Assembly (NCBI RefSeq): GCF_030406325.1
Contig: NZ_JAUEQY010000036.1
Span: 1-64,000 of the forward strand
Origin: Actinomadura sp. DC4
GTDB lineage: Bacteria; Actinomycetota; Actinomycetes; Streptosporangiales; Streptosporangiaceae
Direction of reading: 5' to 3'
DNA: 64,000 nt
Numbering within the stretch: the stretch's first letter is position 1; every line of letters begins with the position of its first letter. Positions 7,193-19,527 of this stretch are shown here, piece by piece. Below the pieces are notes generated by a model. It did no database searches, was not told where the DNA came from, and saw only the letters and a list, made by a program, of their open reading frames with translations. A program made the translations under genes and the position numbers.

Positions 7193-7357
7193 GCATGACG
7201 CGTACGGGCATGGTGCCCGTCGGCACGGCCGCTTACCATCACAGTCACGCGGCGGAAGGGACCCCGTTGAACGCGCACCGACTCCGCCCGCCGGCCCGGA
7301 GCCACCTGCGCGAGTTACGGTTCCGCCCGGCCTGCGAGGGCAGGTGAGGTGACCGAC

Positions 7358-9343
7358 GTGAGCGACGCGACCTGGCCCGCGGCCGGCGACTGGCAGACGG
7401 CGGTACTCGACGAACTCGACGTCGAGCCCGGCCTGACCACCTTCCCGCTCCCGCCGGCCGACCCCACGGCACCCGGAGACCTCCCACCCTCGGCCCCAGA
7501 GCCGGCCGAAGGCACGGGATCGCTGTCGGCGGGTTCGCCGGCCTCCGCCTCCGCGTCAGCTTCGCATCCCGGCCCGGCTCCGGGTGCGGAGGATTCTTCC
7601 GCTCCGCCGTCCGGCCGGGGTGCGGGGTTGTCACCGGAGAGTTCGCAGCCTTCCGTAGCCGGCCCCGGTCCGGCCCCGGCTTCTGCTCCCACCCCGGCCC
7701 CGGGCCCGGCGGACTTGTCCTCGTCGGATGCGGAGTCGACCGGGCCGGCGGACTTCTCCGCTCCGGTTCCGGGTCCGGCCGCGGAGGCCGCGTCGGCGGG
7801 GTTTCCCGATCCGATCCCGGTGGGGGAGACCTCGGGATGGACGGGACCGCCGGTCCCGGGACCGGCCTACGAACCGGCCCCGGCCCCGTACCTCGCCTAC
7901 GACGCGGACCACGGGGGACCGGCCGACCCCCAGGAGCCGCCGCCGGGAGAATCGGCGGCGTCCACAGGGCTCGGCGGACCGACCGAGGCCGTCCCGGGAC
8001 CCGCAGACGTCCCGAATCGCCAGGCGGAAGCCGTGCCGGGGCCGTCGGATCGTCTGGGGCAGCAGGCCGAGGGCCTTCCGGGGCCGTGGAACCGTCTGGA
8101 GCGGCAGGCCGAAGCCCGTCCGGGGCCGCCGGACCACCGGGAGCGACAGGGCGACGTGCCGTTTCCCGCCGGGGCCGTGCCGACCATGCCGGACCGGCCG
8201 CCGGAGGCGGGTGCCGTGGAGCCGGACGGGACCTTCCCGCCGCCGCCCCAGCCCCAGTCTCAGCCTCAGCCCCCCACTCCGCCGACCGCCGAGGACCTCC
8301 CACTGGACCCCGCGGCCTGGCCTTCCGCCGACGAGACCCAGGATCCGGCGGAGGAGACCCGCCGGGACTCCCAGGGGCCGCCGCCGTACCGGGACGTCCA
8401 GTGGGCCGGCCCGTCCTTCCCCGGCCAGGCGCTCGACCCCCTCCACGGACGGCCCGCCCCACCCCCCGAGCCCGGTCACAGGAGCGTGCACGGGGACCCG
8501 CTGCTGCGAAGGGTCGGGCGCGGGGTCCGGCGGGCGGTCGGGGCGTCGGCGGCTCAGGACGTGCACGACTGGGCGGCGGTGGCGGCCGGGCTGCGGCAGC
8601 CGATCACCACCATCCGCCGGATCGTCGTCAGCAGCGTCCGCGGAGGCGCCGGGAAGACGACCGTCGCCGCGCTCATGGCCTCCGCTCTGGCCCGCCATCG
8701 CCCGGACCGGGTGCTGCTCATCGACGCCGACCCCGGGCTCGGTTCCCTGCCGATGCGGTTCGGCATGACCGGGGCCCCCTCGCTGCGGGACCTCGCCGGG
8801 CGGCGGCCGAACTCATTCGAGGAGGTCGCGCCGCATCTCGCCCGTACCGACGGCGGGCTGTGGGTGCTGCCCGGCGTCCGCGGCGAGATGGCCGAGCAGC
8901 CGCTCGACCTGGCGACCTACGCGTCCGCGACCTCCGCCCTGACCCGGTTCTTCACCGTCGTGGTGGTCGACTGCGGCGTCGGCATGGTCGGCGAACTGCC
9001 GGAGGCGATCCTGGCGAGCGCCCACGCGTGCGTGCACGTCGCGCCCGCCACCTCCGACGGGGCGGTCGGCGTCGGCCGTGCGCTGGACTGGATGCGGAAG
9101 AAGGGGTTCGGAGAGCTGCTGCCGCGTACGGTGACGGTGTTCGCCACGCACGCGCCGCACGCGCGGCCCGATCTCAGCCAGGCGGCCGGGCTCCTGCACC
9201 ACAACGGCGTCGGCGTCGCGTACCTGCCCTATGACCGCCATCTCGCCTCCGGGGGCGTGCTCGTCCCCTCGCTTCTCGCCGAGTCCACGCGCACGGCCGC
9301 GCTCACGCTCGCCGCCGACGCGCTGACCAGGGCGAACCGCTGA
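7358..9343 (+). CDS. MinD/ParA-like ATPase with long Pro-rich N-terminus (T7SS-associated, EspI-like)
   Basis: About 430 residues of Pro/Ala/Gly-rich low-complexity sequence precede a SIMIBI-class ATPase domain. That domain shows the deviant Walker A RGGAGKTT, the switch block LLIDADPGLGSL, and VVVVDCGVG as Walker B. The layout matches EspI-type proteins of ESX loci: a disordered N-terminus plus a MinD-like ATPase that modulates secretion. The Pro-rich part holds four 14-residue repeats. GTG at 7358 has AGGTGAGG at 8-nt spacing; GTG at 7349 is also open. It ends directly against the convergent sulfatase gene. Confidence 0.75.
   Translation: MSDATWPAAGDWQTAVLDELDVEPGLTTFPLPPADPTAPGDLPPSAPEPAEGTGSLSAGSPASASASASHPGPAPGAEDSSAPPSGRGAGLSPESSQPSVAGPGPAPASAPTPAPGPADLSSSDAESTGPADFSAPVPGPAAEAASAGFPDPIPVGETSGWTGPPVPGPAYEPAPAPYLAYDADHGGPADPQEPPPGESAASTGLGGPTEAVPGPADVPNRQAEAVPGPSDRLGQQAEGLPGPWNRLERQAEARPGPPDHRERQGDVPFPAGAVPTMPDRPPEAGAVEPDGTFPPPPQPQSQPQPPTPPTAEDLPLDPAAWPSADETQDPAEETRRDSQGPPPYRDVQWAGPSFPGQALDPLHGRPAPPPEPGHRSVHGDPLLRRVGRGVRRAVGASAAQDVHDWAAVAAGLRQPITTIRRIVVSSVRGGAGKTTVAALMASALARHRPDRVLLIDADPGLGSLPMRFGMTGAPSLRDLAGRRPNSFEEVAPHLARTDGGLWVLPGVRGEMAEQPLDLATYASATSALTRFFTVVVVDCGVGMVGELPEAILASAHACVHVAPATSDGAVGVGRALDWMRKKGFGELLPRTVTVFATHAPHARPDLSQAAGLLHHNGVGVAYLPYDRHLASGGVLVPSLLAESTRTAALTLAADALTRANR
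7985..8152 (+). repeat. Four 42-bp tandem repeats in the Pro-rich region of the MinD-like gene
   Basis: Four consecutive 14-residue units follow the pattern E-(A/G)-x-PGP-x-(D/N)-xxxxQ-(A/G): EAVPGPADVPNRQA, EAVPGPSDRLGQQA, EGLPGPWNRLERQA, EARPGPPDHRERQG. The period is exact, without indels. Confidence 0.9.
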
Positions 9344-12903: not shown

Positions 12904-13713
12904 ATGAACGTGATGGGGGTTCGATCACTCGGCTCCTACGACCTGCTGGAGCCGGTCGGGGAGGGCGCCACGTCCGTCGTGCACCGCGCGGTGGACCTGT
13001 TCGGACGCGTGGTCGCGGTCAAGGAACCGCGCCGTGAGCTGGCCGCCGACCCGACCATCCGCCGCCGGCTGGCCCGCGAGGCGCAGGCGATGGCCCGGGT
13101 GCGCAGCCCGTACGTCGCCGAGGCCTACGACGCGTGCCTGTCGGGGGAGCAGCCGTTCATCGTCACCGAGTTCGTCGGCGGCGCGCCGCTGGGCGACCTC
13201 GTGCCCCGGTTCGGCCCGATGCGGGGCGAGTCGCTGACCGTGTTCGCGGGGCGGCTCGCGCAGGGCCTCGCGGCGATCCACGGAGCGGGTCTGCTGCACC
13301 GCGACCTCAAGCCGGGCAACGTCATGGTCCTGTCGGGCGCTCCCAAGATCATCGACTTCGGCATCGCGCAGGATTCGACCGCCGAACAGCACACCCAGGC
13401 GGGTGTGCTGACCGGAACTCCGGGCTATGTCGCGCCGGAACTCATCGACGGCGGGCGGTCCAGCGAGGCCGCCGACGTCTTCTCCTGGGCGGCCACGGTC
13501 GCCTTCGCCGCGACGGGCCGCCCGCCGTTCGGCGCGGGGTCGCTGCACGGCGTGTGTTTCCGCGTGCTCCGCGGCGACGCCGACCTGGACGGAGTCCCCG
13601 AACCGGTGCTGTCGCTCGTACGCCTCGGCCTGCGGCGCGACCCGGCGGCACGGCCGTCGGCGGCCTGGCTCGCCGCCCGGCTTACGCTGGGCGAGGCGAG
13701 ACGGGCCTCATGA
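12904..13713 (+). CDS. Ser/Thr protein kinase, soluble (kinase domain only)
   Basis: The protein has 269 residues, essentially a bare eukaryotic-type kinase domain: glycine loop GEGATSVV, catalytic Lys in VVAVKEP, HRDLKPGN, DFGIAQ and GTPGYVAPE. Unlike the next two kinases it has no membrane region. ATG at 12904 or 12913 are possible starts, neither with a good ribosome binding site. It is 56 bp upstream of the second kinase and shares blocks with it (ARVRSPYVAE, GTPGYVAPE, FGIAQ), suggesting tandem duplication. Confidence 0.85.
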   Translation: MNVMGVRSLGSYDLLEPVGEGATSVVHRAVDLFGRVVAVKEPRRELAADPTIRRRLAREAQAMARVRSPYVAEAYDACLSGEQPFIVTEFVGGAPLGDLVPRFGPMRGESLTVFAGRLAQGLAAIHGAGLLHRDLKPGNVMVLSGAPKIIDFGIAQDSTAEQHTQAGVLTGTPGYVAPELIDGGRSSEAADVFSWAATVAFAATGRPPFGAGSLHGVCFRVLRGDADLDGVPEPVLSLVRLGLRRDPAARPSAAWLAARLTLGEARRAS

Positions 13714-13769
13714 CCTTGTCCTGATTGACACCCGTCGGACCCCACATGCACAGGTATCGTGGCGGAACT

Positions 13770-15392
13770 ATGAAGGGGGTAGACACGTCCGGGCAGAACA
13801 TCGGCCGTTACCGCTTGCTCGAGAAGATCGGGGAAGGCGGTATGGGCGTCGTGCACCTGGCGACGGACCCTCAGGGGCGCCAGGTGGCCGTCAAAGTGCT
13901 GCGGCCGGGCGTCGCCTCCGACCAGACGGCGCTGCGGCGGCTGGCGCGCGAGGTCGACTCGATGCGGCGGGTGCGCAGCCCGCACGTCGCGGAGATCGTC
14001 GACGCGGACGTCACCGCCGAGCCGCCGTACGTCGTCACGCAGTACGTCCCCGGGCGCACGCTCGAGCAGACCGTACGCGACCGCGGCCCGCTGAAGGTCC
14101 ACCAGTTGCAGCGGCTGGCCACCGGCCTGGCCGCCGCCCTGTCGGCCATCCACGACGCCGGGATCATCCACCGGGACCTCAAGCCCGGCAACGTGATGTT
14201 CCTGGACAACGGCGAGCCGGTCGTCATCGACTTCGGCATCGCCCAGGGCGTCGACGCCACGCGGCTCACCGCGACCGGCCTGGTCATCGGCACCCCGGGC
14301 TATCTCGCGCCGGAGATCATCGAGGGCGAGGACGCCGCGGCCCCGGCCGACGTGCACTCCTGGGCCAGCACGATCGCCTACGCCGCCACCGGCCGCGCGC
14401 CGTTCGGCTCCGGCACCTTCGAGTCGATCTTCTACAAGATCATGGAAGGCAAGCCCGACCTCGACGGCGTGCCGCCCGCGCTGCTGCCGCTCGTACGCGC
14501 CGCGATGGCGCGCAACCCGGCCGAGCGCCCGACCGCGCAGGCGCTCGTCGGCCTGACCTCGCGGCTCGACGTCGAGCGGACGATGGTCGACTCGCCGTCG
14601 GCGCCGCGCACCAAACCGCTCACCGCGGTCATCGCGCCGCCGCCGCCGGCCAACCCGCGTGACTTCCGCGGCCAGCTGCCGCCTGTGGCGCCCCCGCCGG
14701 CGTACGGCCGGCAGCAGCCCTACGCACAGCGGCCGCAGCCCGCGCCGCCGCGCGAGCGTCCGCCCGAGCCGCCCAAGCCGGAGGGCCCCAAGCCGTACGG
14801 CCTCTACCGGCTCCTCAGCTTCATGCTCCTCGCCGGCGCGGTCGGGCTGGCCATGGTGCTGCCCTCGATCGCCGTGGTCGTCGTCGTGGTCGTCATGCTG
14901 ATCCTCCGGGTCGCGGACCGCGCCCATCAGAGCCTCACCTCCAAGCGCACACGCCGGGGGCCCAAACCCTCCGACGTCGCCGGGGTGATCGTCCGGTCGC
15001 CGTTCTCGGTGGTCCGCGGAGGCCTCACGATGGCGCTGATCAGCCCGATCGCCATCCTGGCCGGCGTGGTGGTCCTCGTCATCGCCCTGGCCGCCAAGTC
15101 CGAGATGACGATCGCCCGCGCCCTGTCGTTCAGCGCCGCGGCGTTCATCATCACGACCTGCGTCGGACCGGGCAGCGAGCCGTCCCGCCGCCAGCTCTCC
15201 CGGATCTGGGGTGCGGTCGCGCCCCGGCGCGAGCGCGCCTGGATCGTCGTGGGCGTCGTCGGCCTGCTCGTCTTCTTCCTCGTCTCCTTCTCCCTGAGCC
15301 AGACGCCGGAGCTGCGGCCGTTCGACTTCCCGGTGTTCAAACACGACCTGCCGCACCTGCGGCACCAGCTACGCAAGCTGTTCGGGAACTGA
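13770..15392 (+). CDS. Ser/Thr protein kinase with C-terminal multi-pass membrane domain
   Basis: The protein has 540 residues. The kinase domain (about 11-270) has GEGGMGVVH, VAVKVL, HRDLKPGN, DFGIAQ and GTPGYLAPE. A Pro-rich linker (about 285-345) leads to a membrane region with about four hydrophobic segments and the block SRRQLSRI before the last one. Two aligned membrane regions occur in the next kinase and in the stand-alone protein at 16913, so this is a shared module and not the usual PASTA sensor architecture. ATG at 13770 is 10 nt after a possible -10 box (TATCGT, 13755-13760), so the mRNA may be leaderless. Confidence 0.85.
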   Translation: MKGVDTSGQNIGRYRLLEKIGEGGMGVVHLATDPQGRQVAVKVLRPGVASDQTALRRLAREVDSMRRVRSPHVAEIVDADVTAEPPYVVTQYVPGRTLEQTVRDRGPLKVHQLQRLATGLAAALSAIHDAGIIHRDLKPGNVMFLDNGEPVVIDFGIAQGVDATRLTATGLVIGTPGYLAPEIIEGEDAAAPADVHSWASTIAYAATGRAPFGSGTFESIFYKIMEGKPDLDGVPPALLPLVRAAMARNPAERPTAQALVGLTSRLDVERTMVDSPSAPRTKPLTAVIAPPPPANPRDFRGQLPPVAPPPAYGRQQPYAQRPQPAPPRERPPEPPKPEGPKPYGLYRLLSFMLLAGAVGLAMVLPSIAVVVVVVVMLILRVADRAHQSLTSKRTRRGPKPSDVAGVIVRSPFSVVRGGLTMALISPIAILAGVVVLVIALAAKSEMTIARALSFSAAAFIITTCVGPGSEPSRRQLSRIWGAVAPRRERAWIVVGVVGLLVFFLVSFSLSQTPELRPFDFPVFKHDLPHLRHQLRKLFGN

Positions 15393-15402
15393 GCACGCTC
15401 CG

Positions 15403-16854
15403 ATGCCCGACCGCGAGGCGGAGCGCGCCGGGCCGTACCGCCTCCTGGAGTTCGTCGGCGAGGGTGGCATGGGCGTGGTCCGCCGCGCGCTCGGCGGCGA
15501 CGACCGCGAGGTCGCCGTCAAGCTGCTCAAGCCGGAGCTGACCGGCCACGCCGACTTCCGCCGGCGGCTGGCGCGCGAGGTGGACACGATGCGCCGCGTG
15601 CGCAGCCCGTACGTCGCCCAGGTCCTGGACGCCGACGTGGCGGGCGAACGGCCCTACGTCGTCACGCGGTTCATCCGGGGCCGTGCGCTGGACGACGTCG
15701 TACGGGCGGGCGGCCCGCTGTCCGGCGAGCCGCTGCGTCGTGTGGCGGCCGGGCTGGCCGACGCGCTCGTCGCGATCCACGGCGCGGGTGTGGTCCACCG
15801 CGACCTCAAGCCGAACAACGTGATGCTCGTCGACGGCTCCCCGGTCGTGATCGACTTCGGCATCGCGCACGCCGTGGACGCCACGCGGCTGACGCGCCTC
15901 GGGCAGGTCGTCGGGACGCCCGGCTACATGGGACCGGAGATCATCGAGGGCGCGATGCCGGGGCCGCCGGTGGACGTCTACGGCTGGGCCGCGACGGTGA
16001 CGTTCGCGGCGAGCGGCCGGTCGCCGTACGGCAGCGGTTCGCTGGAGGCGGTGCTGGCCCGCGTCGCGGCCGGCCGCCCGGATCTCGACGGCGTGCCGGC
16101 GCGGCTGGAGCCACTGGTGCGCGCGGCGCTCGACCGCGACCCGCGGCGCCGGCCGTCCGCGGCGGAGCTGGCGGCCCGGCTGCGCGACCTCGACCTCCGC
16201 GTCCCCGAGACGGTCGTGGTCCCGGCGACCGTCGTGGTGCCGGAGCGGCGTCCCCCGCTGTTCCTGTACAAGCTGTTCGCCTACGGGACGATCGTGGCCG
16301 CCTCCGCCGCGAGCGCGGTCCTGCCGGTCGCCGCCGTCGCGGGCGTCGTGGTCGCCGGGTGGTACCTACGAGCGGGCGACTCGGCGCTGCGCGGCCGCCG
16401 GGTCCCGATCGAGACCGCCGCCGACCTGACGCTGGCGCCGGCGCGGGCACCGGCCGGCGACCGGCTCCGCGCCGCCGCCGTGCTCCTGCCGACTCTGGCC
16501 TACGCCGGGCTGATCGCGGCGATGGTCGGCACGGCGCTGCACGTGCGCGGGCGGCTCGGCGGCACGATCGGCTCCGGCGCGACCACGAAGTGGACGGCGT
16601 TCGCCTTCGCGTACACGCTGCTGGCCGGTCCCCGCGTGATGGCCCCGCGCCGCCAGCTCGTACGGCTGCTGTCGGGCGTGGCGCGGACCCGGTGGGCGAC
16701 CGCGGTCGCCGGGGTGGCAGTGGCCGGGCTCGCGGCGGGCGCGGTGTTCGCGGGCTGGAGTTCACCGCCGTCCTTCTGGCCCGCTCCCTCCCCGTACCCG
16801 GTGCTCGGCCGGCTCGCCGATCTCGTCGGAGATCTCACCGGGAGACTGCCCTGA
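15403..16854 (+). CDS. Ser/Thr protein kinase with C-terminal multi-pass membrane domain
   Basis: The protein has 483 residues. The kinase domain (about 10-265) has GEGGMGVVR, VAVKLL, HRDLKPNN, DFGIAH and GTPGYMGPE. The membrane region (about 285-465) contains LYKLFAYG, GWYLRAGD and APRRQLVRL, matching the companion proteins on both sides. ATG at 15403 lies 10 bp after the previous stop, so the two kinases are probably co-transcribed. No extracellular sensor domain is visible, so the membrane module itself is the candidate sensor. Confidence 0.85.
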   Translation: MPDREAERAGPYRLLEFVGEGGMGVVRRALGGDDREVAVKLLKPELTGHADFRRRLAREVDTMRRVRSPYVAQVLDADVAGERPYVVTRFIRGRALDDVVRAGGPLSGEPLRRVAAGLADALVAIHGAGVVHRDLKPNNVMLVDGSPVVIDFGIAHAVDATRLTRLGQVVGTPGYMGPEIIEGAMPGPPVDVYGWAATVTFAASGRSPYGSGSLEAVLARVAAGRPDLDGVPARLEPLVRAALDRDPRRRPSAAELAARLRDLDLRVPETVVVPATVVVPERRPPLFLYKLFAYGTIVAASAASAVLPVAAVAGVVVAGWYLRAGDSALRGRRVPIETAADLTLAPARAPAGDRLRAAAVLLPTLAYAGLIAAMVGTALHVRGRLGGTIGSGATTKWTAFAFAYTLLAGPRVMAPRRQLVRLLSGVARTRWATAVAGVAVAGLAAGAVFAGWSSPPSFWPAPSPYPVLGRLADLVGDLTGRLP

Positions 16855-16912
16855 CTCCGTGCGCCCGCGCCTGCCTACGGAAGGGCGCTCGCGCCGGTAA
16901 TGTTGCCTCGCG

Positions 16913-17572
16913 ATGACGTCGGACGAGACACACGCGGCTCCCCTCCTGCGGCCCGCTGACGACCAGGCCGCCGACGCCGTGATCGAAGGCTGGTCACGGC
17001 TCTTCGCCTACCTGGTCGTCGCGATCGTGGTCGGCTTCACCGTCGTGCTGCCCTTCTTCGGGCTCCTGCTCGCGATCGCCACGGCGTCCTACCTGCGCGC
17101 GGGCGACCTGCACGCGCGCCGCCACGCCGGTGGGCTGCTGCGCCTGCTGGCCGGCCCGCTGACCGTGCCCCTCGACCTGCTGCGGGGGACGGGCGGCACC
17201 CTCGTCAGCCTCCCTTACGCGGCGGTGTTCGCCGTGGTCGTGCCGATGCTGGTGATGTCGGTCGCGGCGGTCGGCGTCGAGGTCGCCCCGCTCGTGGGCG
17301 CCGCGTGGGGAGCGGGCGCGGCGGCGTACGTCATGCTCGCCGCCCCCGGCATCCGGGTGCCGCGGCGTCAGCTCATGCGGATCTTCGCCGCCCTCGCCGC
17401 GGAGCCGCGCCGGTTCGCGATCACGGGCGTGCTGCTGTGTGCTCTGTCACTCGGAGCGGTGGCCGGCGCGATCGTTTTGCAGCCGAGGTTCTCCCCGGTG
17501 TACGAGCTGAAGAACTCCATCGCCCAGCAGCTGTCGCAGTTCCAGCACTCCGTCCGCCGGAGCGTTTCCTGA
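16913..17572 (+). CDS. Kinase-less membrane protein homologous to the kinases' C-terminal domain
   Basis: The protein has 219 residues and about five membrane segments. It matches the membrane regions of the two preceding kinases: WSRLFAY near the start, ASYLRAGD after the first spans and VPRRQLMRI before the last span. It lacks any kinase domain. It may be a partner or regulator that hetero-oligomerises with the kinase membrane domains. ATG at 16913 is 9 nt after TAATGT (16898-16903), a possible leaderless promoter. Confidence 0.7.
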   Translation: MTSDETHAAPLLRPADDQAADAVIEGWSRLFAYLVVAIVVGFTVVLPFFGLLLAIATASYLRAGDLHARRHAGGLLRLLAGPLTVPLDLLRGTGGTLVSLPYAAVFAVVVPMLVMSVAAVGVEVAPLVGAAWGAGAAAYVMLAAPGIRVPRRQLMRIFAALAAEPRRFAITGVLLCALSLGAVAGAIVLQPRFSPVYELKNSIAQQLSQFQHSVRRSVS

Positions 17573-17785
17573 GACCAGGCGTTTTGCGCCCAGGCTACTC
17601 ACGGGTAACATCGAGCGTGTCCTTGCCGCGGACCCGGGGCCGAATGTGTTTCGGGTCTTTGGCAGGCTTATGGTGCGAACGCAATGCCCGCGCCGGCCCA
17701 ACCGGGCGCGCCTGTTCTTTCGGCGCAGGCGGCGGCGGGAGGGAGAGAGGCGCGTTATGGAGTGTGCAGGGAGGGCGTACCCGGA

Positions 17786-18565
17786 ATGAACATCGTCGTC
17801 TGCGTGAAGCAGGTGCCCGACACGGCGTCCGAGAGGAAGCTGAAGTCCGACGACAAGACCCTCGACCGCGAGGCCGCCGACGGTGTCATCAACGAGCTCG
17901 ACGAGTACGCCGTCGAAGAGGCGTTGACGATCAAGGAGGCGCACGGCGGCGAGGTGACCGTCCTCACCATGGGGCCGGACAAGGCCGCCGACTCGATCCG
18001 CAAGGCCCTCGCGATGGGCGCCGACAAGGCCGTCCACGTGAACGACGAGGCGCTGCACGGCTCGGACGGGCTGTCGACCTCGTACGCTCTCGCCCAGGTG
18101 CTCAAGAAGATCGGGTTCGACCTGGTCATCCTGGGCTCGGAGTCGACGGACGCGCGTACGGGCGTGCTCGCCGCGATGCTGTCCGAGCGGCTCGGCGTCC
18201 CCCAGGTGACGCTCGCCAACAAGGTCGAGATCGACGGTTCCTCGCTCAAGGCCCAGCGGCTGACCGACTACGGCTTCGACCGGGTCGAGGCGAGCCTGCC
18301 GGCGGTCATCAGCGTGGTCGAGAAGATCAACGAGCCGCGCTACCCCTCGTTCAAGGGGATCATGGCGGCCAAGAAGAAGCCGGTCGAGAAGCTCGCCGTC
18401 GCCGACGCGGAGATCGATGCCGCGCTGGTCGGCCTCGCCGGAGCCTCAACGGAGGTCGTCGACTTCGCCGACGCGCCGCCGCGTGAGAAGGGCCAGATCG
18501 TCAAGGACGAGGGCGACGGCGGCTCGAAGGCCGCCGAGTTCCTCGCGTCGAAGAAGTTCGTCTGA
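17786..18565 (+). CDS. etfB: Electron transfer flavoprotein beta subunit
   Basis: The protein has 259 residues, the normal length for EtfB. It begins MNIVVCVKQVPDTASERKL and contains NELDEYAVEEAL and LVILGSESTDARTGVLA, typical of the beta subunit, which binds AMP and passes electrons from acyl-CoA dehydrogenases to the FAD of the alpha subunit. The ATG at 17786 follows GGAGGG at slightly long spacing. etfA starts 11 bp after its stop, so both are made from one mRNA. A TAACAT box at 17606-17611 is a possible promoter in the 213-bp upstream gap. Confidence 0.95.
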   Translation: MNIVVCVKQVPDTASERKLKSDDKTLDREAADGVINELDEYAVEEALTIKEAHGGEVTVLTMGPDKAADSIRKALAMGADKAVHVNDEALHGSDGLSTSYALAQVLKKIGFDLVILGSESTDARTGVLAAMLSERLGVPQVTLANKVEIDGSSLKAQRLTDYGFDRVEASLPAVISVVEKINEPRYPSFKGIMAAKKKPVEKLAVADAEIDAALVGLAGASTEVVDFADAPPREKGQIVKDEGDGGSKAAEFLASKKFV

Positions 18566-18576
18566 GAGGCGGGAAA

Positions 18577-19527
18577 ATGGCGGAGATTCTCGTTCTCGTC
18601 GACCACGTCGACTCCGAGGTCAAGAAGGTCACCTTCGAGCTGCTCACGCTGGCGCGCAAGCACGGCGAGGCGGCGGCGGTCTGGATCGGGCCGGGGTACG
18701 AAGGTGCCAAGGACAAGCTGGCCGAGTACGGCGCCGCCAAGGTGTACGTCGCCGCCGACGAGGAGCTGACCTCCTACGTCGTGGCGCCGAAGGCGGAGCT
18801 GCTGGCCAAGATCGTGGCCGACGCTTCGCCGGCCGCGGTCCTGGTGGCCGCGACCGGTGAGGGCAAGGAGGTCGCGGGCCGTCTCGCGGTCAAGATCGAT
18901 TCCGGCGTCCTCACGGACGTCGTCGGCCTCGCGGACGGTTTCGTCGGCGAGCACTCGATCTTCGGCGGCGCGATCGTCTCGCACGCCAAGGTGACGAAGG
19001 GCACCCCCATCGTCGCCGTACGGCCCAACTCCACCGCGCCGGAGGCGTCCCCGTCCACGCCGGCCGAGGAGCAGGTGTCGGTGACCCTGTCCGATGCCGC
19101 CAAGGGCGCCAAGGTCGTGGAGAAGGTCGTCCAGGAGAAGGGCGAGCGGCCCGAACTCACCGAGGCCGCGATCGTCGTCTCCGGCGGACGCGGCGTCGGC
19201 GGCGCCGACAACTTCAAGATCATCGAAGACCTGGCCGACTCGCTCGGCGCGGCCGTCGGCGCCTCCCGCGCCGCGACCGACGCCGGCTGGTACCCCCACA
19301 CGTTCCAGGTCGGCCAGACCGGCAAGACGGTGTCGCCGCAGCTCTACATCGCGGTCGGCATCTCGGGCGCGATCCAGCACCGCGCCGGAATGCAGACCTC
19401 CAAGACGATCGTCGCCATCAACAAGGACTCCGAGGCGCCGATCTTCGAGCTGGTCGACTACGGAGTGGTGGGCGACCTGTTCCAGGTCGCCCCGCAACTC
19501 ACCGAAGAGATCACCAAGCGCAAGTAG
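18577..19527 (+). CDS. etfA: Electron transfer flavoprotein alpha subunit
   Basis: The protein has 316 residues. The N-terminal alpha/beta domain begins [19 protein letters not shown]. The C-terminal FAD-binding domain holds [44 protein letters not shown] and GAIQHRAGM, the conserved EtfA signature. Together with EtfB it forms the soluble heterodimer carrying electrons to the respiratory chain. It is followed by a strong terminator. Confidence 0.95.

Follow-up and report, generated by a model that had tools for sequence, protein, structure and literature searches.

In the 64,000-nucleotide stretch of the Actinomadura sp. DC4 genome that we analysed (contig NZ_JAUEQY010000036.1, positions 1 to 64,000; hereafter the window), four genes, K1, K2, K3 and solo, lie in a row on the + strand. 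The first three encode Ser/Thr kinases, and solo encodes only the membrane module in which K2 and K3 end. Judged from its clade membership in phylogenetic trees, solo is the orthologue of P, a kinase-module protein of related genera, minus its kinase. The sequences suggest that its ancestor was a kinase-fused paralogue and that the kinase of this paralogue decayed along several lines, a point missed by the original prediction, which had been made from the letters of this DNA. We assign a probability of about 0.5 to the reading that K2 is the catalytic member and solo its non-catalytic membrane partner, derived from a duplicated P-type protein, in a membrane receptor-type Ser/Thr kinase system. 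The features of the run are the following:

12904..13713, + strand: K1, a soluble Ser/Thr kinase of 270 amino acids with canonical catalytic residues (HRDLKPGN, DFG, APE)
13770..15392, + strand: K2, a Ser/Thr kinase that retains six canonical catalytic positions and has a Pro-rich linker and the membrane module at its C-terminus
14796..15389, + strand: membrane module of K2, profile match with E 3.3e-65, its own sequence being inside the profile
15403..16854, + strand: K3, a Ser/Thr kinase with a C-terminal membrane module; HRDLKPNN, DFG and PE intact
16261..16842, + strand: membrane module of K3, profile match with E 1.7e-47, its own sequence being inside the profile
16913..17572, + strand: solo, a bare membrane module of 219 amino acids without a kinase domain; by tree placement orthologous to P, the kinase-module paralogue found in related genera

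The original prediction had placed this run at 12904-17572, which is exact, and had described it as two kinases with a common multi-pass C-terminus followed by that domain alone, headed by a soluble third kinase. The latter is K1, whose Pkinase match in the Pfam scan fills nearly the whole protein (residues 13-255 of 270) and leaves scant space for a membrane part. The common domain was confirmed as well. In profile-profile comparisons with hhalign, E-values were 1.1e-47 for solo-P, 1.3e-25 for solo-K3, 4.7e-20 for K3-K2 and 5.8e-14 for solo-K2, whereas solo compared with five reversed alignments as controls gave 0.025 to 0.72; the match among the three regions (5.8e-14 to 1.3e-25) is therefore significant beyond hydrophobicity. 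When solo was searched against its own 10.7 Mb genome (22 candidates scored), three places were found, namely itself, the tail of K3 (E 1.8e-8) and the tail of K2 (4.9e-6), and a search with the module profile (150 candidates scored) returned the identical three. The sequence marks that had been quoted are present (LYRLLS, LYKLFAY and WSRLFAY; SRRQLSRI, PRRQLVRL and PRRQLMRI) apart from YLRAGD, which occurs in K3 and solo but not in K2, where LRVADRA is found. Seven columns, P47, L61, P145, R151, R152, P191 and P195, are invariant in 28 aligned modules. Three of them, P47, L61 and P195, are invariant in a wider set of 32, and the profile match places these three at fixed positions. The core motifs are retained in solo.

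The first hydrophobic stretch of the module is some 33 residues long and is centred on the invariant proline. Averaged over the 32 modules, with loop and segment borders placed by hand, the net charge is +3.9 in loop 1, +4.2 in loop 3 and -0.2 each in loop 2 and the tail. Conserved charges are confined to the loops taken as cytoplasmic, none lying within hydrophobic segments. The module probably has five membrane segments. Based on the loop charges and hydropathy, with the kinase inside, we infer two hairpins, of which the N-terminal one turns at the invariant proline, followed by one last helix and a tail on the outside. No match of the module above cut-off was found in Pfam, NCBIfam or PDB: no Pfam family matches more than one of the 32 modules (best E 0.0011), and the best PDB match of the module profile has an E-value of 0.072. 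The candidates rejected as below cut-off were DUF7059 on K3 only (residues 272-327, the start of the module; E 0.0024, 18.4 bits, cut-off 27), the Pfam family DUF2627 on solo (E 0.16), the NCBIfam model DVU0150 on solo (E 0.1) and PMP22_Claudin on 1/32 modules (E 0.0011). A description of the module or of its kinase-free copy was not found in the literature covered, which leaves most subscription journals aside.

P is the second module protein of four genera (g38, g51, g66 and g67) and of one contig of a metagenome-assembled genome (MAG; L009). In a tree of 67 modules, for which 17 of 49 modules of the S group were taken, the solo (7) and P (13) modules group together in a single clade with support of 99/98, and solo itself is supported at 100/100. 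The K3 modules (8) join this clade (99/97 for the three), while K2 (22) and S (17) stand on the opposite side. A second tree of 38 rows, in which the 53 g38 P genes were thinned to one in four (14), again united solo and P (100/100); the solo of G467 was left out of the trees. In addition to sharing the module clade, solo occupies the same place in the locus as P, after K2 or K3 and before K4 (a further kinase of some relatives) or etfB. The record of L009 is titled Glaciihabitans sp. MAG. This contig has the etf-side kinase locus and clusters with L047 and L048, genomes of the window's family, and the title is probably wrong.

A family search of 341 genomes identified 78 with a solo/P-type module at E <1e-40, of which 8 were solo and 70 fused to a kinase. 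All eight solo-type genomes belong to Actinoallomurus, which near relatives indicate to be the genus of the window, and the fused genes are found in g38 (62), g67 (5), g51 (2) and g66 (1). Kinase residues could be scored in 61 of the 70 fused genes (eight of the others were cut at contig ends and one was frameshifted), giving 62 together with L009. The canonical positions scored were the beta3 Lys, HRD Asp, Asn, DFG Asp and PE. All of them are present in 3/62 P kinases (L009, L050 and L053), whereas 59/62 lack one or more. Among the g38 proteins scored, 53/53 have lost the beta3 Lys (52 carry Arg instead), 53/53 the Asn, 53/53 the activation segment together with APE, and 38/53 the HRD Asp. 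In contrast, every canonical position is kept in 97/97 K2, K3, S and single-copy kinases scored (21+8+49+19). Among the lineages scored, kinase decay is thus specific to the P lineage (59/62 versus 0/97). Loss or decay of the P kinase takes 4 changes on the best tree (38 rows), suggesting that decay occurred repeatedly, with four events as the best count. In one genome (G833:C175:8032-8579) the P module is split across two frames, by either a frameshift or a sequencing error.

Both K2 and solo are found in 8/8 Actinoallomurus genomes, solo each time with an open frame and with its kinase part gone, whereas K3 is found in 6/8. At L010:6781-6930 in G052, 50 residues of the K3 module remain between K2 and solo (E 4.8e-5; 2.7e-7 in a second search), and this remnant is the scar of a lost K3. 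K3 was not found in G468, as in L005. A. iriomotensis NBRC 103681 has K1, K2 and solo, and neither K3 nor K4 was found there. The ratio of nonsynonymous to synonymous substitution (dN/dS) in ten pairs of five species is 0.27-0.41 for solo, 0.32-0.76 for the K2 module and 0.41-0.91 for the K3 module; it is 0.21-0.33 in three P pairs. These values come from a simple Nei-Gojobori count on GC-rich codons, and the ten pairs are not independent. Solo has the lowest ratio of the three modules in 9/10 pairs, the exception being L007-L008 (0.320 for the K2 module, 0.326 for solo). Solo is under purifying selection. K3, which resembles solo most closely within the window, is conserved less well and is absent in 2/8, which had escaped the original prediction. 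The other kinases vary too: K4 follows solo in L006, L007, L008 and L010 and was not found in the window, L004, L005 or L247, and K1 was not found in L010. We rejected the membrane tail of K4 as a further copy of the module, as its E-values against five module groups (0.02 to 0.18) are about those of the reversed controls; the K4 alignment had 7 rows, three of them short, which makes this a weak test.

The kinase domains of K1, K2 and K3 score 134.3, 146.2 and 131 bits with PF00069 (cut-off 31.7) and carry the beta3 Lys, HRD Asp, Asn, DFG Asp and APE, the last being GPE in K3. For solo, no kinase match was present in Pfam and NCBIfam up to an E-value of 1. The kinases had been set apart from the PASTA type, and this holds: with the PASTA-kinase model NF033483 of NCBIfam they score 152.7, 212.7 and 160.1 bits, under the cut-off of 450, and no PASTA domain is in their Pfam match list. 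In a kinase-domain tree of 94 rows, which included 13 of the 49 S kinases and a selection of K4 kinases, K1, K2 and K3 each form one clade, as does P (100/99). The open frame of K2 spans 13725-15392 and opens at TTG 13725; ATG 13770 is the likelier start, since the relative at locus L047 opens with the same MKGV. We also observed that in K1 of L011, L012, L014, L015 and L052 the motif HRDLKPGN is replaced by HRDVAPGN or HRDVSPGN; the catalytic-loop lysine is absent and the remainder intact, unlike the K1 of Actinoallomurus, which retains this lysine.

The module is also found in fused form outside the genus. With solo as query, 59/100 family genomes were positive, its own included. The module profile matched 84/394 class genomes, 40 in the window's family (own included) and 44 in seven other families, as well as 3/246 phylum genomes, all three in the class Actinomycetes; at most 8 first-look candidates per genome were scored in the class search and at most 13 in the phylum search, so absences there are weak. 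No match was found in the 7 genomes listed of genus g85 (at most 13 candidates per genome). Across the sampled Actinomycetes the module is fused to kinases in eight families. Twenty regions from the class search were fetched, six in the window's family, all with an etf-like gene next to the kinase, and fourteen in other families. Because 19/20 of these hold a single kinase-module protein (L130 has just a weak partial match without a kinase), the earlier arrangement was probably a single fused protein, and several copies in a row would be a trait of the window's family.

How could a kinase-free copy remain useful? Bacterial kinases of this type, such as PknB, are activated by dimerising and mutual phosphorylation. 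We propose that after duplication the kinase of the P paralogue became dispensable and its membrane module did not. As the kinase half was lost whole in the line of solo, whatever is retained resides in the module, and the P/solo module probably has a role of its own beside the kinases. Since the module is common to the active and the inactive subunit, a mixed assembly would suit: solo and K2 may assemble via their modules, and the mixed assembly could set the frequency at which pairs of K2 kinase domains come together and trans-phosphorylate. Solo would in this way tune K2, as a spacer or damper or as the sensing half, with K3 as an accessory active copy and K1 and K4 as optional further kinases. 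More generally, a receptor kinase may have turned into a hetero-assembly in which one subunit keeps the kinase and the other has shed it independently, by point loss, activation-loop deletion or removal of the whole domain, leaving a membrane subunit for signal sensing or spacing; the odds of this scheme fall a little short of even. If it is true, the membrane module and not the kinase is the conserved core of a family of signalling systems across the class Actinomycetes. The unnamed module, fused to kinases in eight families, is a possible sensor. The steps of decay are laid out in living relatives, from intact kinase to damaged kinase, pseudokinase-like protein and bare membrane domain. This gradation opens to test in bacteria the common idea that one member of a duplicated kinase pair can go on working without catalysis.

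Several observations weigh against the K2-solo pairing and the history behind it. Some g38 P kinases keep the HRD Asp (15/53) or DFG (25/53), and L047 and L048 still have K, D, N and DFG, their losses lying chiefly in the activation segment, so that a degraded kinase is no proof of inactivity. If just the starred branches of the tree are counted, the degraded label has to change no more than 2 times, and two nodes have modest support (85/63 and 88/87), which is why four is given as a best count. Furthermore, P without solo is not a supported clade (38/3 in the module tree), and no obvious Shine-Dalgarno sequence was seen before solo when the sequence was read by eye. Finally, many Actinomycetes have one kinase-module match and no partner (8 candidates per genome scored; 19/20 regions), indicating that a partner is not a general need.

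The main rival to a partnership of K2 and solo is a module with an activity of its own as a pore or enzyme. The module itself would then do the work, as a channel, transporter or membrane enzyme, with the kinases as its regulators and solo as an unregulated or trans-regulated form. P47, P145, R152 and P195 as well as R62, G146 and R156 are indeed retained with or without a kinase, and the module outlasts the kinase on several lines. However, no transporter or enzyme family matched above cut-off in Pfam, NCBIfam or PDB, and the conserved charges lie in putative cytoplasmic loops and not within the hydrophobic segments. We consider this account unlikely, if well worth keeping in mind.

The remaining explanations fare worse. 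That kinase decay is common in the P lineage, that K3 of the same cluster was lost in 2/8 genomes and that the P module of G833 is broken would all fit with solo being a functionless, decaying remnant of a dying kinase gene; the open frame of solo in 8/8 genomes of the genus, its low dN/dS and its retained core motifs make this improbable. It is slightly more improbable still that solo represents the ancestral module, to which the kinase was fused later. In favour of this order of events, solo is sister to all P proteins in one tree (38 rows; 96/88), but the K3, K2 and S modules branch outside solo and P and are kinase-fused in all complete copies, and no kinase-free copy was found outside the genus among the 61 scorable P genes of the family search. 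A likeness of hydrophobic segments only, which the low pairwise identity of solo to the window's K3 (27%) and K2 (22%) might have implied, is refuted here by the profile E-values against reversed controls, the three places in the whole genome and the motifs at the same positions.

Two further genes follow solo in the window and form its conserved flank:

17684..18565, + strand: etfB-like gene, immediately 3' of solo, found beside kinases in other genera
18577..19527, + strand: etfA-like gene

Both names are presumed from the sequences, and the native start of the etfB-like gene is probably internal to its frame. We compared 52 loci with the window (L004-L015 and L045-L084, where L045 repeats L010 and L046 repeats L007), using gene calls from our own GC-frame script for the fetched loci. 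Most loci are arranged as [K1]-K2-[K3 and/or P or solo]-[K4]-etfB-etfA-MFS-TetR-cysteine desulfurase, though some lack one part or another; the names of the non-kinase genes are likewise presumed from sequence. The original prediction had hinged on a conserved gene neighbourhood, and an etfB- or etfA-like gene was indeed found beside the kinases in 46/52 related loci. The six loci without etf are L010 and L045, from one genome whose contig stops after K4, and L058, L061, L064 and L072, where the one module kinase lies elsewhere. A functional tie to the electron-transfer flavoprotein was rejected, as the etf genes adjoin only inside the window's family and other families have other neighbours. 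These are presumably a trehalose-phosphate synthase and a CBS protein, a citramalate synthase, or a WYL-type regulator and a PhoU-like protein. In A. purpureus, a gene on the - strand (L006:5320-6504), whose product we take to be TnpB-like, lies between K3 and solo, and both flanking frames are open. Another kinase with two predicted membrane segments was observed beyond etfA in four loci (L011:9679-11475, L014:10959-12677, L015:9566-11374 and L052:4800-6548), and no module match was found in these four kinases. Elsewhere in the window, 7349-9343 encodes an ATPase with a long Pro-rich N-terminal part, presumably MinD/ParA-like, ahead of two further genes that we take to be sulfatase-like and DUF885-like.

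K1-K3 resemble Hanks-type bacterial Ser/Thr kinases of the PknB and AfsK type in their PF00069 domain and catalytic residues. They differ in that K2 and K3 end in a membrane module that belongs to no described family, and no known sensor domain is in their Pfam list. The idea that g38 P is an MviN-type pseudokinase was not supported, with the nearest solved structure as a proxy for membership: the top PDB matches were a MAPKK-like protein, PknE, RAD53 and PknB, and no entry named MviN was among the best 60 of 110, which also include PknA. In animals, HER3 belongs to a receptor pair with a catalytically weak member. Such pairs are like the proposed K2-solo assembly in combining one active kinase with a partner without activity; solo, by comparison, has lost the entire kinase domain and kept the membrane part alone.

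The nearest known kinase run in the literature covered is SCO4775-4779 of Streptomyces coelicolor, which likewise consists of adjacent Ser/Thr kinase genes (PkaH, SCO4776, PkaD, PkaI and PkaJ), each transcribed separately (PMC4416010). Deletion of all five kinases leads to aberrant spores, extra copies disturb spores too, and PkaI phosphorylates MreC and PBP2 (PMC4416010). Compared by description only, the available part of that account makes no mention of a shared membrane module or a kinase-free member (PMC4416010). The ActPs3 pseudokinases of Actinobacteria are described, in the part of the source at hand, as having complete loss of catalytic motifs, a deleted activation loop and a C-terminal membrane region (PMC12599244). 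By this description, g38 P is similar in its C-terminal membrane region and in the loss of the beta3 Lys, catalytic-loop Asn and activation segment (53/53 each), whereas its decay is less complete (HRD Asp in 15/53, DFG in 25/53) and solo differs in having no kinase domain at all (PMC12599244). A kinase-free module is not covered in the available parts of either account (PMC4416010, PMC12599244). Hanks-type kinases, kinase runs and pseudokinases are already known; our comparison suggests that what is new here is a solo protein orthologous to P and the repeated decay of the P kinase.

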